Positions 4,154-33,480 of a DNA stretch of 36,685 bases are shown here, one piece after another. A program made the translations under genes and the position numbers. The notes below the pieces were generated by a model. It was not told the DNA's origin. It searched no databases and was given only the letters and a program-made list of their open reading frames with translations. Source of the DNA: Candidatus Auribacterota bacterium (GTDB lineage Bacteria; Auribacterota; Tritonobacteria; UBA1439); assembly GCA_026392035.1 (NCBI GenBank), contig JAPLCX010000060.1, positions 1-36,685 of the forward strand, read 5' to 3'. Every line of letters starts with the position of its first letter. Position 1 is the stretch's first letter.

Positions 4154-4990
4154 ATGATAAGCTACTCGTTATTCATGAAAATGATGCTCCTGCTGTTTTT
4201 GGTCATAATGCTGTTTATCACAGGCTGTGCGGTCTACACACCCCGACCTACAGCTCATAAAATGCCTATATATCAGAGCGCCTCGATCGAGCGGCTCCTG
4301 AAGCGCCTCTCCACCGGCTCATCAACTGTCACCAACATCAAAGCCGATTTCTCGGCATCGATAACCGACCTCAAGAACATCACCACGCAGTCCTGCAGCG
4401 GCATACTGGCCATGGCGAAGCCCGACAAGCTCAGGATGAGAGGGAGCAAGGCCATGCTTCCGACGCTGTTTGATCTCCTCTACGATGGAAACCAGCTCAC
4501 GCTCTTTGTCCCACGCGACAAAACAGTGTATCGGTCTGCGCGCAACGCCGAGAGCATTCGGCGGGGGCTGACCGGCGTGAGCTTCTTCACGGATATCTTT
4601 TTTGGCAATGAGGGTGAGCAGGGAAGCCTCCATTTTCTTGAAACCTCGACCTCTCAGTACACGGTCTACTCGGTTGTCCTGCTCAAGGGGAATCCCAGGC
4701 TATTAAAAAAAGTGTATTTTGAGAGAGCGAACCTTTTCCCTGTACGCTACCAGTATTTTGATGGCGAGGGAACGCTCACATGCGATATCAGATGCAGCGA
4801 TTTTTTTGTGCCCCTGGCCGGAGCAGAAGCCATCCCACGGGAGATCGCACTCGAGGCCCCGCCGGGAGAGAACAAAATCGTGCTGACGCTCACGGATGTC
4901 CGGCTCAACAGCCATTTGAATCCTGAGCTGTTTACCTTCGCCATGCCTGCTGACGCCAACGTGCGTCCGCTCGAGGAGTACGCGCGATGA
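4154..4990 (+). CDS. LolB-like / DUF4292-type outer-membrane lipoprotein
   Basis: 278 residues. A hydrophobic signal (MKMMLLLFLVIMLF) ends in the lipobox LFITGC, so Cys at about residue 25 is the likely lipidated residue. The mature part begins with an acyl-carrier-like fold: IKADFSASITDLKN, then SCSGILAMAKPDKLRMRG and LYDGNQLTLFVPRDKTVY. That is the pattern of LolA/LolB-superfamily half-barrels that hold lipid chains. The ATG at 4154 has GGAAG seven bases upstream. The stop overlaps the next gene (ATGA at 4987), so translation is coupled to the ABC permease. Context suggests an acceptor or anchor for lipoproteins at the outer membrane. DUF4292-type lipoproteins with other roles remain possible. 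Confidence 0.75.
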   Translation: MISYSLFMKMMLLLFLVIMLFITGCAVYTPRPTAHKMPIYQSASIERLLKRLSTGSSTVTNIKADFSASITDLKNITTQSCSGILAMAKPDKLRMRGSKAMLPTLFDLLYDGNQLTLFVPRDKTVYRSARNAESIRRGLTGVSFFTDIFFGNEGEQGSLHFLETSTSQYTVYSVVLLKGNPRLLKKVYFERANLFPVRYQYFDGEGTLTCDIRCSDFFVPLAGAEAIPREIALEAPPGENKIVLTLTDVRLNSHLNPELFTFAMPADANVRPLEEYAR

Positions 4991-6090
4991 CGAGCTTTGT
5001 CTGGGCCAATGTGCGCCACCGCAAGACCAGGAGCCTTCTCTGCGTCGTGGCCGTGGGCATCGGCATCGCACTCCTGCTCGTCCTCAGCGGCCTCTGCCGC
5101 GGCATGATCGCTGAATCGGCCCAGAGGATGAGGAACACGGGGGCGAGCATCATCGTCCAGCCGCGCAGCGCCTCGGGACTCCTCGCGTTCAAGGGGAGCA
5201 GCCTGCCGGTCAGGTATGGCCCCGAGCTCGCGCAGATTCCCGGCGTCACTGCCGCATGCCCGGTGCTCACCTGGACGACCACGATCGAAAAGGTCATCTA
5301 CGTGATCTACGGGGTGGACCTGAAGAGCTACGAAGCGGTCGGCGGACGGCTCCAGCTCGTCGAGGGCCGGCCATGGAGAGACACGCACGAGCTCCTCCTG
5401 GATACGAGGCTCGCGGGCGCCAATGGTTACAAGGTCGGGGACAAAATACCGCTCCTCGGCGCGCACTTCACCGTCGCCGGCATTTTCAAGAGCGGGGTGG
5501 GCGCACGGGTCTATGTCCCGATCGAGACGCTCCAGACGTCGCTGCACCTTGAGGGGATGTGCTCGCTCTTTTTTCTGAAAACGAACACGGGCGAGGCGCA
5601 CATCGTCACAGACACCGCCGGGCAAATCGAACGCCGGTTTCCCGCGCTGAGGGCGAATGCCCTCGACCGCTACGAGGACGTCATGGTGAACGAGGTGACG
5701 GGTCTCAATGAATTCTTCGGCGTCATCACCTCGACGGCGCTCGTCATCAGCTTCCTCGTCATCCTCCTCACCATGTACACCACGATCATCGAGAGGACCC
5801 GCGAAATCGGCATCCTCCGCTCGCTGGGCGCGACGAAGGCGTATATCATCCGCATGGTCATCAAGGAATCCGTCCTCCTCTGCGCCATGGGCGTCGTTGC
5901 GGGTTCGGCGTTCACCTCGCTCGCGCGCTTCTGGATTGCGGCCTACCACCCGCTGCTCACCATGGAGATCACCGCCGCCGGTTTTTTGCGCGCCGCTGCA
6001 CTGGGCGTGGCGGGCGGCGTACTCGGGGCGCTTTATCCCGGCTTCAGGGCGGCCCGCATTGATCCCGTAGAGGCATTGACGTATGAATAG
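4987..6090 (+). CDS. FtsX/MacB-type ABC transporter permease (LolC/E-like role likely)
   Basis: 367 residues with the MacB/FtsX topology. There is one N-terminal membrane segment (about 14-38, LLCVVAVGIGIALLLVLSG), a periplasmic domain of about 200 residues, then three C-terminal segments (about 245-275, 290-320 and 330-360). The C-terminus ends in the coupling sequence GALYPGFRAARIDPVEALTYE, typical of this family, and ERTREIGILRSLGATKAYI is the cytoplasmic coupling helix. The gene overlaps the lipoprotein gene upstream by 4 bases and the ATPase gene downstream by 8. A single permease would act as a homodimer. The neighbouring lolA and LolB-like genes favour lipoprotein release, but a MacB-like efflux role is not excluded. 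Confidence 0.87.
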   Translation: MTSFVWANVRHRKTRSLLCVVAVGIGIALLLVLSGLCRGMIAESAQRMRNTGASIIVQPRSASGLLAFKGSSLPVRYGPELAQIPGVTAACPVLTWTTTIEKVIYVIYGVDLKSYEAVGGRLQLVEGRPWRDTHELLLDTRLAGANGYKVGDKIPLLGAHFTVAGIFKSGVGARVYVPIETLQTSLHLEGMCSLFFLKTNTGEAHIVTDTAGQIERRFPALRANALDRYEDVMVNEVTGLNEFFGVITSTALVISFLVILLTMYTTIIERTREIGILRSLGATKAYIIRMVIKESVLLCAMGVVAGSAFTSLARFWIAAYHPLLTMEITAAGFLRAAALGVAGGVLGALYPGFRAARIDPVEALTYE

Positions 6091-31191: not shown

Positions 31192-31225
31192 AATACAAAG
31201 GGCCCTATAAAGGGCCCTCTGTATT
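31192..31225 (-). terminator. Candidate terminator of the Spy-like gene
   Basis: Arms 31192-31206 (aatacaaagggccct) and 31211-31225 pair with one mismatch around a 4-base loop. On the minus strand the stem is followed by a short T-rich run. It lies 70 bases past the Spy-like stop codon. Confidence 0.55.
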
Positions 31226-31295: not shown

Positions 31296-31865
31296 TCACT
31301 CAGAGACACTCCCGACCGACTCCCCAGCGGGTTTCTCCGGCTGCGTGGGGACAGGCTCGGGTTTCGCGTTCTGATCGGCACAATGCCCACGCCTCTGACC
31401 CTTCCCTTTCCACGGCCCGTGCTTTTCGCCGCCGTACTCCTCCTTCAGAGAGCTCAGTTTCTTGAATTGCTCAGGTGTGAGCGTCTCTTTCATCTGGAGA
31501 ATATTTTTGACTTTCTGATCTATGCGCTGTGCCTCCAGGCGCTTCAGTTCGGACGTGACACTCTCGATCTTGCCCTTGTCAGGCTGCTGCTTGTCCAACT
31601 CCTCGAGAAGCTCACTGTGCTTCGTTTTGAGAGCCTGCTTAAGTTCCCGCATCGCGCTCATATTCGCCTGACGCTGTTTCTTTATCTGCTCCGTCTGCGC
31701 AGGGGTCAGGTTGAGCTCCTTGAGCTGCTCCTGGAAACGCCCTTCTCCGTGCTCCTCTCCCTCCCCCCGCATCGGGCAGGGAGTCTGTGCGTGCGCGTCA
31801 GCCAGAGAGAGAAGCAGTGCACCCATCCCCAGCGCCACAATTGCCCCAGCAAATCGTACTTTCAT
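31296..31865 (-). CDS. Spy/CpxP-like periplasmic protein with LTxxQ motifs
   Basis: 189 residues. The signal peptide is MKVRFAGAIVALGMGALLLS, with cleavage after AHA. LNLTPAQTEQIKK (near 52) and ETLTPEQFKKLSS (near 131) are the two LTxxQ motifs of the Spy/CpxP family, separated by a charged helical hairpin (LKQALKTKHSELLEELDKQQ). Family members are periplasmic chaperones or metal and envelope-stress sensors. The C-terminal tail is Pro/Lys/His-rich. AGGAGG lies 8 bases before the ATG. A sigma-E-like promoter and a 27-codon upstream frame precede it. Confidence 0.87.
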   Translation of the reverse strand: MKVRFAGAIVALGMGALLLSLADAHAQTPCPMRGEGEEHGEGRFQEQLKELNLTPAQTEQIKKQRQANMSAMRELKQALKTKHSELLEELDKQQPDKGKIESVTSELKRLEAQRIDQKVKNILQMKETLTPEQFKKLSSLKEEYGGEKHGPWKGKGQRRGHCADQNAKPEPVPTQPEKPAGESVGSVSE

Positions 31866-31945
31866 CTTTGACTCCTCCTTTTTGGTATAAGATTGTTCAA
31901 CTCAGATCGCATGGCTATATCTTCGATAGCCAGCTCAATATTCAT
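31862..31945 (-). CDS. Putative 27-codon upstream ORF overlapping the spy-like start
   Basis: ATG at 31945 to TGA at 31864-31862, where the TGA overlaps the ATG of the spy-like gene (AGATGA). The sequence AAAGGAGGTGATG gives near-perfect anti-16S pairing. The spacer from GGAGG to ATG is only 2 bases, so the real start could be different. The predicted peptide begins MNIELAIEDIAMRSELNNLI and ends with basic KRRSQR. A 6-bp hairpin, ggctat...atagcc, lies inside. A leader peptide or coupling ORF is possible, but a non-coding leader is equally possible. Confidence 0.35.
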   Translation of the reverse strand: MNIELAIEDIAMRSELNNLIPKRRSQR

Positions 31946-31961
31946 CACCTCCTTTAACATC

Positions 31962-31990
31962 TTAGACACAGAGCGAGCGCCAGAAGTTCC
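31962..31990 (-). promoter_or_regulatory. Sigma-E-like (ECF) promoter upstream of the spy-like gene
   Basis: Minus-strand GGAACTT (31990-31984), a 16-base spacer, then GTCTAA (31967-31962). Both boxes match the E. coli sigma-E consensus closely. Transcription would start near 31955, just before AAAGGAGG. The gene it controls belongs to an envelope-stress family, which makes this match more credible. Confidence 0.6.
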
Positions 31991-32069
31991 CGCTATAGCA
32001 AATATTGCTCGATAATTGTGCCGAAGTTTTCAGAGGTCGTGCCTGAGTGATCCGTTCCATTGGCAGCAG

Positions 32070-32105
32070 AGCAGATGACTTATTATTTGGGGTGTGACCC
32101 TGATT
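32070..32105. repeat. 36-bp degenerate repeat, partner at 33280-33315
   Basis: Both copies end in tgaccctgatt and begin agc-ga-ga. About 30 of 36 bases agree. In the second copy it follows the longer repeat unit at 33113-33271. Confidence 0.55.
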
Positions 32106-32160
32106 GTTGCTTCCTCCGCTTATGATGGGGAAGCTTTATTGAGGTGTCGTGGACGCTTAA

Positions 32161-32310
32161 ATGCGTATGCCGATAACATTCACGCGAGTCAAGGCGGATC
32201 TTTTTAGCATTCCAATTATAGATACTGGAGGGAATGGCTCAAAAATTTCCCCTGTTTTTGGTGCTCCCCTTTGACTTCCCCCACGAGCTCCACGGGCGCA
32301 GGAAAGAATC
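32161..32310 (+). repeat. Degenerate repeat unit copy A with a short open frame
   Basis: Copy A (32161-32310) and copy B (33113-33245) share aacattc-cgcgagtcaagg and ggagggaatggctcaaaa blocks at conserved spacing. Copy A can be read as 37 codons, including TFTRVKADLFSIP and GGNGSKISPVFG. Differences from copy B are spread over all codon positions, so coding selection is not evident. Confidence 0.5.
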
Positions 32311-32319
32311 CCGATGTCA

Positions 32320-32838
32320 TCATGGCTCCGCATGAAATCCGATGCGATGCTTGAGCTTTTCGGGTGGCGCCATGAGTTCGCGGATTGCGTCGAAAACCAC
32401 CCTAAATTGAGCGTCGTATTTCTTCTCCATTTCTTCGAGTTTGCGGGCCAGCTCGACATGCGTCGACAGAATCATCCGCAGTTTCACAAACGCCCGCATG
32501 ATTTCAATATTCACATGGACGGCCCTTTTGCTCCTAAGAACGCTGGAGAGCATAGCCACTCCCTGCTCCGTAAAGGCATAGGGATTGGCGCGGCGCAGGC
32601 CACCCCAATTTGAAGTCACAATTTGTGACTTCAAGTTTTGAAACTCCTAATCGGTGAGCTGGAACATAAAATCTTCAGGGAATCGCTCGATGTTTCGCTT
32701 CACCGCCTGTACCAATACTCTCGGTGCCACACCATAGAGCTCTGCGAGATGAGTACTCAGCATTACTTTGTTCCCATGAATTATATAAATCCGGCGCTCA
32801 ATGGATCCCCCGAGGATCATCGCTCCATGCTTTGCCAT
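32320..32838 (-). pseudogene. ORF6N-domain protein gene with an in-frame amber stop
   Basis: ATG at 32838 (AGAGGTG six bases upstream) begins MAKHGAMILGGSIERRIYII. It continues LSTHLAELYGVAPRVLVQAV and NIERFPEDFMFQLTD, the ORF6N/KilA-N-type DNA-binding domain. A TAG at 32649-32647 follows, and the same frame continues [16 protein letters not shown] to [19 protein letters not shown] and ends at 32320. A family member would have Glu or Lys at the TAG position, so one base change inactivates the gene. The total is 173 codons including the amber. These proteins are phage- or mobile-element-related regulators. Suppression of the amber codon cannot be excluded. Confidence 0.82.
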
Positions 32839-33008
32839 ATTTCACCTCTTTCAGATTGGCTAAGCTGACTCCAGCAGCCCACATCTCCGCTGGCTAGAGG
32901 TCCAATCATATTTAGCCCTTCACATGATTAGACGAAGTGAGTGAGCATGTTATTCCCGGAAAAATGAAATATTATTTTCGGCGGGGGTAAGTGGAGGCTT
33001 GAATTGGT

Positions 33009-33071
33009 ATGCCGATAATATTCGTGCGAGTCAAGGAGGATCGGTGTGGCATTCATGGATGGGGACAATGA
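33009..33071 (+). repeat. Degenerate repeat unit copy C (partial)
   Basis: Shares gtatgccgata and ttcgtgcgagtcaagg with copy A. As an open frame it is 20 codons (MPIIFVRVKEDRCG...). The downstream stretch 33072-33112 also retains a weak relative of the unit (atatttgtgtgggccaagg). Confidence 0.4.
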
Positions 33072-33112
33072 TATTTGTGTGGGCCAAGGCGGAGGGGTTG
33101 AGCGTTCGCGGG

Positions 33113-33271
33113 ATGAGATCAATAACATTCGCGCGAGTCAAGGCGGATGGATTTGGCAGTCTCAGTATAAATGCTGGAGGGAATGGCTCAAAATTTTCGG
33201 CTGTTTTTGGTGATTCCTTTCGATTCCCCCCACGAGTGCAGGAAAAGGAACCTCTGATCTCAGCGCAGTGA
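33113..33271 (+). repeat. Degenerate repeat unit copy B with a short open frame
   Basis: The frame from ATG 33113 to TGA 33271 reads MRSITFARVKADGFGSLSIN then GGNGSKFSAVFG and FPPRVQEKEPLISAQ. It is related to copies A and C. The rest of the 642-base stretch between the ORF6N gene and the PIN gene contains only these and the 36-bp repeat, plus gtcaaggataaagatttgacccc near 33357-33380, a short palindrome-like motif related to the RAYT ends. Confidence 0.5.
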
Positions 33272-33279
33272 GTGCGCGC

Positions 33280-33315
33280 AGCGGACGATTTATTGTTTGG
33301 GGAGTGACCCTGATT
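33280..33315. repeat. 36-bp degenerate repeat, partner at 32070-32105
   Basis: Second copy of the repeat described at 32070. It directly follows copy B of the larger unit, indicating a composite element of roughly 200 bases. Confidence 0.55.
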
Positions 33316-33480
33316 ATTTCAGAGGCTGATGGGAAAAGGCATCACCGCTGTATCAACTGTCAAGGATAAAGATTTGACCCCCAATGCACCTCCAAGGCCG
33401 CTCTTTGTTACCCAACTATTTCTATCTTTTTAAATTACAGCAAGACATCGTGGCGCGAAGGGGATCGCACAGAAGCGCCC

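Follow-up and report, generated by a model that had tools for sequence, protein, structure and literature searches.

Genes and features at the locus

The window analyzed here is the entire contig C60 (36.7 kb) of a 2.8-Mb MAG (genome G000), and the features described below lie on its minus strand. A gene encoding an exported protein of 189 aa, placed in the Spy/ZraP/CnrX superfamily by Pfam, NCBIfam and the helical core of its AlphaFold model, occupies positions 31865..31296. Upstream of it, an ECF (sigma-E-type) promoter spans positions 31990..31962. The -35 element, GGAACTT (31990..31984), was identified by an exact motif match and by its conservation before sigma and spy genes in relatives, and a 16-nt spacer separates it from the -10 element, GTCTAA (31967..31962). 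Six nucleotides after the -10 begins a Shine-Dalgarno (SD)-like block, AAAGGAGGTG (31955..31946), which would form the 5' end of the transcript. The block is followed by a 27-codon upstream open reading frame (uORF; 31945..31862) encoding the peptide MNIELAIEDIAMRSELNNLIPKRRSQR. Its ATG, at 31945, stands just 2 nt after GGAGG, and its TGA (31864..31862) overlaps the spy ATG to give ATGA. The spy-like gene also has an SD of its own, AAAAAGGAGG (31883..31874), located 8 nt before its ATG and with a counterpart in the Auribacterota relatives. Upstream of the promoter, at 31993..32061, tblastn revealed the 3'-end remnant of an anti-sigma gene, NGTDHSGTTSENFGTIIEQYLL*, which in-frame stops cut off on its upstream side.

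Two further features flank this region. A GC-rich inverted repeat, GGGCCC-TTTATA-GGGCCC, followed by a T-rich stretch, lies about 75-100 nt beyond the stop codon of the spy-like gene, also on the minus strand (window ~31195-31225); judged by eye, it looks like the terminator of that gene. An ORF6N-domain gene at 32320-32838 (minus) is apparently split into two ORFs of 63 and 104 aa and is probably broken.

The spy-like protein belongs to the superfamily but is not Spy itself

The original prediction placed a Spy-family gene downstream of the promoter, and at the superfamily level this holds. The 189-aa ORF scores 50.2 bits against Pfam Metal_resist (cut-off 29.2) and 26.5 bits against LTXXQ (cut-off 24.3), carries two LTxxQ motifs and has an N-terminus that resembles, by eye only, a signal peptide. 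Its AlphaFold core is helical, with the hairpin fold of the Spy/CpxP/ZraP/CnrX superfamily, and is confident at residues ~40-145. In Foldseek searches ZraP was the top match, with CnrX, Spy and CpxP among the best (E ~0.02-0.1, Foldseek probability ~1). However, the protein reaches only 28.5 bits on the Spy equivalog model (NCBIfam NF007769, cut-off 174), and it also scores below the NCBIfam cut-offs for the ZraP and CpxP equivalogs. Thus, we regard it as a member of the superfamily and not as Spy itself. It shares with the Spy/CpxP/ZraP chaperones an exported, alpha-helical architecture with LTxxQ motifs, ZraP being the closest in structure, but differs from them in falling under the equivalog cut-offs and in its transcriptional control. 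In E. coli, spy is under Cpx/Bae control.

Genome G000 encodes two paralogues of the spy-like protein, on contigs C77 (74% identity) and C118 (55%). A variant architecture was seen in Tritonobacter, where a spy-like protein of ~334 aa (locus L029 of genome G006, 4472-5476) contains two tandem Spy/Metal_resist domains.

A conserved ECF promoter in front of sigma and spy-like genes

The RpoE (sigma-E) promoters of E. coli and Salmonella carry a GGAACTT -35 element (PMC8103513, PMC3397946), and the -10 of sigma-E promoters is of the GTCAAA type (PMC1804206). The window site has the GGAACTT -35, a -10 of the form GTC(T/A)AA and the ~16-nt spacer expected of this class. It is an exact match to GGAACTT-N16-GTCTAA and the sole one in the 36.7-kb window even when 2 mismatches are allowed, against a shuffling expectation for the window of 0.5 matches at <=2 mismatches. 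In the whole genome, the pattern GGAACY-N16..18-GTCWAA occurs six times and a reversed control pattern five times; consequently, it is the position of the matches, and not their number, that carries the evidence for a promoter. Such a pattern is bound to produce a few random matches per genome, as the control illustrates, and the window site might have been one of them. Yet four of the six matches precede the ECF sigma gene on C77 and the three spy copies (C60, C77 and C118), and the promoter is kept across two phyla at a fixed spacing, which makes a chance match extremely improbable. The window site is thus strongly supported, from sequence comparison, as a genuine and evolutionarily conserved ECF (sigma-E-type) promoter. 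The remaining two genome matches (C59, 15-nt spacer) look unlike regulon members: L035 lies within a 257-codon open frame and L034 opposite a 146-codon one.

The locus on C77 reads, in order, promoter, ECF sigma gene, zinc-finger anti-sigma gene, promoter, leader and spy-like gene. The first of these promoters has the same motif as the window (G000:C77:2436-2464) and stands directly before the sigma gene, a signature of autoregulation. The sigma factor, with sigma regions 2 and 4, scores above the cut-offs for PF04542 and PF08281, and it stands next to an anti-sigma that scores above the cut-off for PF13490 (zf-HC2). The anti-sigma carries the HxxxCxxC motif as HLAACTRC and one hydrophobic segment, AVYAAASLAVVSLIVAFLV. 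The C77 sigma is the one close ECF sigma in the genome, and three others are distant. At G000:C68:16599-17738 a second, distant ECF sigma adjoins a distant spy-like match, which suggests another ECF-Spy pair in this genome.

The original reading of the site as a match to the sigma-E consensus is borne out by the exact motif, by its recurrence before sigma and spy genes in two phyla and by the presumed cognate ECF sigma of this genome, whose gene follows a promoter of identical form. It applies to the promoter type and not to the regulator, since by curated model cut-offs the proteins form an ECF/zinc-finger anti-sigma pair and not an orthologous RpoE/RseA system. The sigma scores 104 bits on TIGR02939, far below the RpoE equivalog cut-off of 236, and apart from zf-HC2 the anti-sigma matches solely other anti-sigma models, below cut-off, and no RseA model. 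The two systems share the promoter motif type and an autoregulated ECF sigma with its anti-sigma; here, in contrast, the anti-sigma is a zf-HC2 protein and the target is a Spy/CnrX-like gene.

A parallel in gene content is CnrYXH of Cupriavidus metallidurans, in which an ECF sigma, an anti-sigma and a periplasmic Metal_resist-family protein, CnrX, are encoded in one locus and CnrX acts as the sensor of the anti-sigma complex. The same three kinds of gene stand together on C77, and CnrX is among the top fold matches. The spy-like gene, however, lies downstream, has its own promoter and has been duplicated away from the sigma gene, features that suit an output of the system better than a sensor such as CnrX. 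Sequence identity is low. A literature search for ECF/LTXXQ pairing returned nothing specific.

A single-sequence search of genome contigs found nothing, whereas an alignment-based search of genome contigs found 30 loci. The relatives recovered by sequence include Ca. Auribacterota, Ca. Tritonobacter lacicola and, more distantly, Omnitrophota, and the window's placement in Auribacterota rests on them. Four genomes (G002, G003, G004 and G006) keep the C77 locus order together with GGAACTT-N16-GTCWAA; G005 keeps the order with a degenerate promoter (GGAACTC...GTCATA). In Omnitrophota, about half of the examined loci have an internal promoter before spy, with the 16-nt spacer in nearly all, and several of those lacking it have spy immediately behind the anti-sigma gene. 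Three Omnitrophota loci (L094, L085 and L097) have the promoter and an immediate SD before genes other than sigma and spy, apparently for exported proteins, so the regulon may be wider than these two kinds of gene.

Evidence that the window copy was duplicated from the operon end

The remnant just upstream of the window promoter, NGTDHSGTTSENFGTIIEQYLL*, aligns with the C-terminal residues of the anti-sigma (tblastn, 59% over 17 aa, E 0.011). It comprises the last ~22 codons of the gene, at the equivalent position and with in-frame stops before it, and DNA homology between the window and C77 starts near it. The C118 copy keeps 67 anti-sigma residues upstream of its promoter, and neither the window copy nor the C118 copy has a sigma gene alongside. 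Because the remnant sits at the right place, the sequence comparison firmly supports the window copy as a detached duplicate of the operon end (anti-sigma tail, promoter, leader and spy), in which the promoter was carried along. The region just upstream of the remnant (window 32070-33318) contains dispersed repeats of 39-115 nt that are 66-85% identical and lie within 1.2 kb, with more copies on C58 and C63; these are possibly linked to the duplication.

The 27-codon frame is present but its peptide is not conserved

The 27-codon frame overlapping the spy-like start is indeed there. The original prediction further took it for a coupled leader ORF upstream of spy, and several observations favor a functional leader that is translated and coupled to spy through ATGA. 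All three copies in the genome (C60, C77 and C118) have a frame of 27 codons, starting with GTG in C118, and in each the stop overlaps the spy start as ATGA. A strong SD stands beside the ATG, and a start codon occurs at the corresponding position in five of the eight Auribacterota leaders. On the other hand, the peptides themselves (MNIELAIEDIAMRSELNNLIPKRRSQR in C60, MTARAVIEAGPLRCVVHRPRYERRHQR in C77 and VDSRPEPGHRATQVAGQNPPKWRRYLR in C118) are unrelated. Only 2-3 of 20 interior positions are identical among the three (3/20 for C60 vs C77), while the C60 and C77 spy-like proteins are identical at 141 of 190 positions (74%). The arginines common to their C-termini are encoded by the spy SD. 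Between C60 and C77, third codon positions of the uORF vary no more than the others, so no codon-position signal is visible.

Comparison with relatives likewise argues against a conserved peptide. Relative to the A of the spy ATG, the uORF stop ends at +4 in the three copies of genome G000, at +104 in G004 and at +38 in G006; in G003 the upstream frame runs in frame into spy, and G002 and G005 have no suitably placed start codon. Nor does the overlap carry much weight alone, since shuffling by itself produces an ATGA-overlapping open frame at a frequency of 3.5-16% (six Auribacterota copies in which the test can give one), and a composition-shuffled leader that is given a start codon remains open at P 0.18-0.57. 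In addition, spy's own strong SD makes coupling unnecessary. We therefore rejected the uORF as a conserved peptide. Conservation of the small frame in relatives was the check that the original prediction had proposed for itself, with its absence named as the refuting outcome, and the frame proved not to be conserved. Thus, the coupled small-peptide reading is probably wrong, and a translated leader coupled to spy appears unlikely on these sequences. A lineage-specific function may still exist in the window's genome, given the 27 codons and ATGA in all three of its copies and the start codon that five of the eight leaders have at +16/+17.

An RNA-structured leader or riboswitch was also considered and rejected. 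The leader folds no better than its shuffles (z 0.8), with no unusual structure, and no Rfam family matched it above chance.

A Shine-Dalgarno block next to the promoter recurs across two phyla

The claim that an SD lies almost on top of the expected transcript start fared better, as this geometry recurs in both phyla. Throughout the regulon the SD starts mostly 6-9 nt after the -10, at or just past the predicted transcript start. Sigma gene start codons are mostly at +15 to +17 after the -10 and are served by that SD. In Omnitrophota, spy start codons are mostly at +20 to +24 and use the SD next to the promoter directly; two leaders are longer, with spy starting at +40 and +49. In Auribacterota the spy ATG lies at +75 to +98 and a second SD is present.

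Our leader comparison covers eight Auribacterota spy leaders, which are mutually related, the window's genus being represented by one genome. Five of the eight have RAGGR at +6 to +8 (six if one more nucleotide is allowed), and five of the eight have ATG or GTG at +16/+17, the position used by sigma genes. Between most genera the leader interiors have diverged almost to randomness, yet five of the eight leaders keep the SD block; the shuffle probability for the block, ~1e-5, ignores shared ancestry and is indicative only. Two genomes, G002 and G003, have no SD block downstream of the -10. A search for the 16S tail pattern in the window's own MAG did not find it, and the anti-SD was therefore taken from relatives: AAGGAGGTGAT in the window is an 11-nt complement of their 16S 3' end, GGATCACCTCCTT.

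The first SD and ATG could be a pure relic, left from a start placed as in the sigma and Omnitrophota spy genes and without present function. The start at +16/+17 fits the sigma genes, the position of the SD fits the Omnitrophota spy genes, and AAAGGGGTGATGAAAATGAG of locus L046 resembles AAAGGAGGTGATGAATATTGAG of the window. The persistence of the SD block while the leader interiors diverged to near randomness weighs against this, although the shuffles ignore phylogeny. We consider a relic a serious possibility, somewhat short of an even chance.

In the functional alternative, the 5' SD would act like a STAB-SD. In cry3A, an SD-like 5' sequence is complementary to the 16S tail and the gene has another SD (PMC4113751). 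Applied here, a 30S subunit would bind the 5' SD element, AAAGGAGG, and guard the mRNA against decay from its 5' end, with or without an ORF. The block's location at the presumed mRNA 5' end, its 11-nt complementarity to the 16S tail, the unusually short distance of 2 nt that separates it from the ATG and its retention in most leaders although spy does not use it for its start would all fit, and cry3A provides the precedent. But that precedent comes from Bacillus, with RNase J; the window SD precedes an ATG and an open frame and is not a processed end, the likeness being one of sequence; and the block, which G002 and G003 lack, may persist as initial transcribed sequence or as a relic. A STAB-SD-like role is accordingly doubtful, with something like one chance in five.

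A model for the regulon and its leader

Our model suggests that a dedicated ECF sigma, probably autoregulated and RpoE-like in its motif, is held by a membrane-type zinc-finger anti-sigma. Envelope or metal stress would free the sigma, which would then transcribe the operon that encodes it along with several gene copies for a Spy/CnrX-like periplasmic protein. Partial duplication of the operon end would have made the window copy a satellite member of this regulon, and we infer that the C77 sigma transcribes the window promoter, with a transcript start near 31955 and ribosome binding at the 5' SD.

We hypothesize that the ribosome-binding site directly after the promoter, on which the sigma and Omnitrophota spy genes start, has been retained at the 5' end of the Auribacterota spy mRNAs as the first SD and ATG. 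The short Omnitrophota leader would be ancestral, a direction that we infer without a tree, and the Auribacterota leaders most likely became longer by ~50-75 nt and gained a proper SD in addition to the first. Ribosomes can probably initiate at the first SD-ATG, the 27-codon peptide would be incidental, and any effect of the leader would come from the ribosomes that occupy it, through protection of the message or through the supply of ribosomes, and not from the peptide. The 5' SD would then be a relic or else a site at which ribosome occupancy matters independently of the peptide, similar in principle to STAB-SD (PMC4113751). Taken as a whole, an ECF-target promoter in a satellite regulon copy, with a retained 5' SD and an incidental 27-codon peptide, is the explanation that we hold to be likely. 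The motif, the locus order, the duplication remnant, the SD geometry and the non-conservation of the peptide are its footing in the sequence.

More tentatively, the promoter and its immediate SD may form a fixed module in the ECF regulon of two uncultured phyla. In Auribacterota, selection would keep the 5' SD, accompanied by a start codon where sigma genes have theirs, despite the gene's own SD; the site would load ribosomes or protect the mRNA independently of the peptide and would thereby strengthen the stress response. We would put this at about one chance in four.

The components are of known kinds: an RpoE-type motif (PMC8103513, PMC1804206), an ordinary ECF/zinc-finger pair and a CnrYXH-like linkage to a Metal_resist protein. 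The locus adds a member of these kinds in poorly studied phyla, and the leader feature is neat but minor. The leader serves as a caution that an SD and ATG near a promoter should not be taken for a leader peptide until relatives have been compared. The locus also offers an example of regulon growth through copying of the operon's own end, and it provides a testable stress regulon, made up of sigma, anti-sigma, promoter and Spy/CnrX-like effectors, for the uncultured Auribacterota and Omnitrophota.
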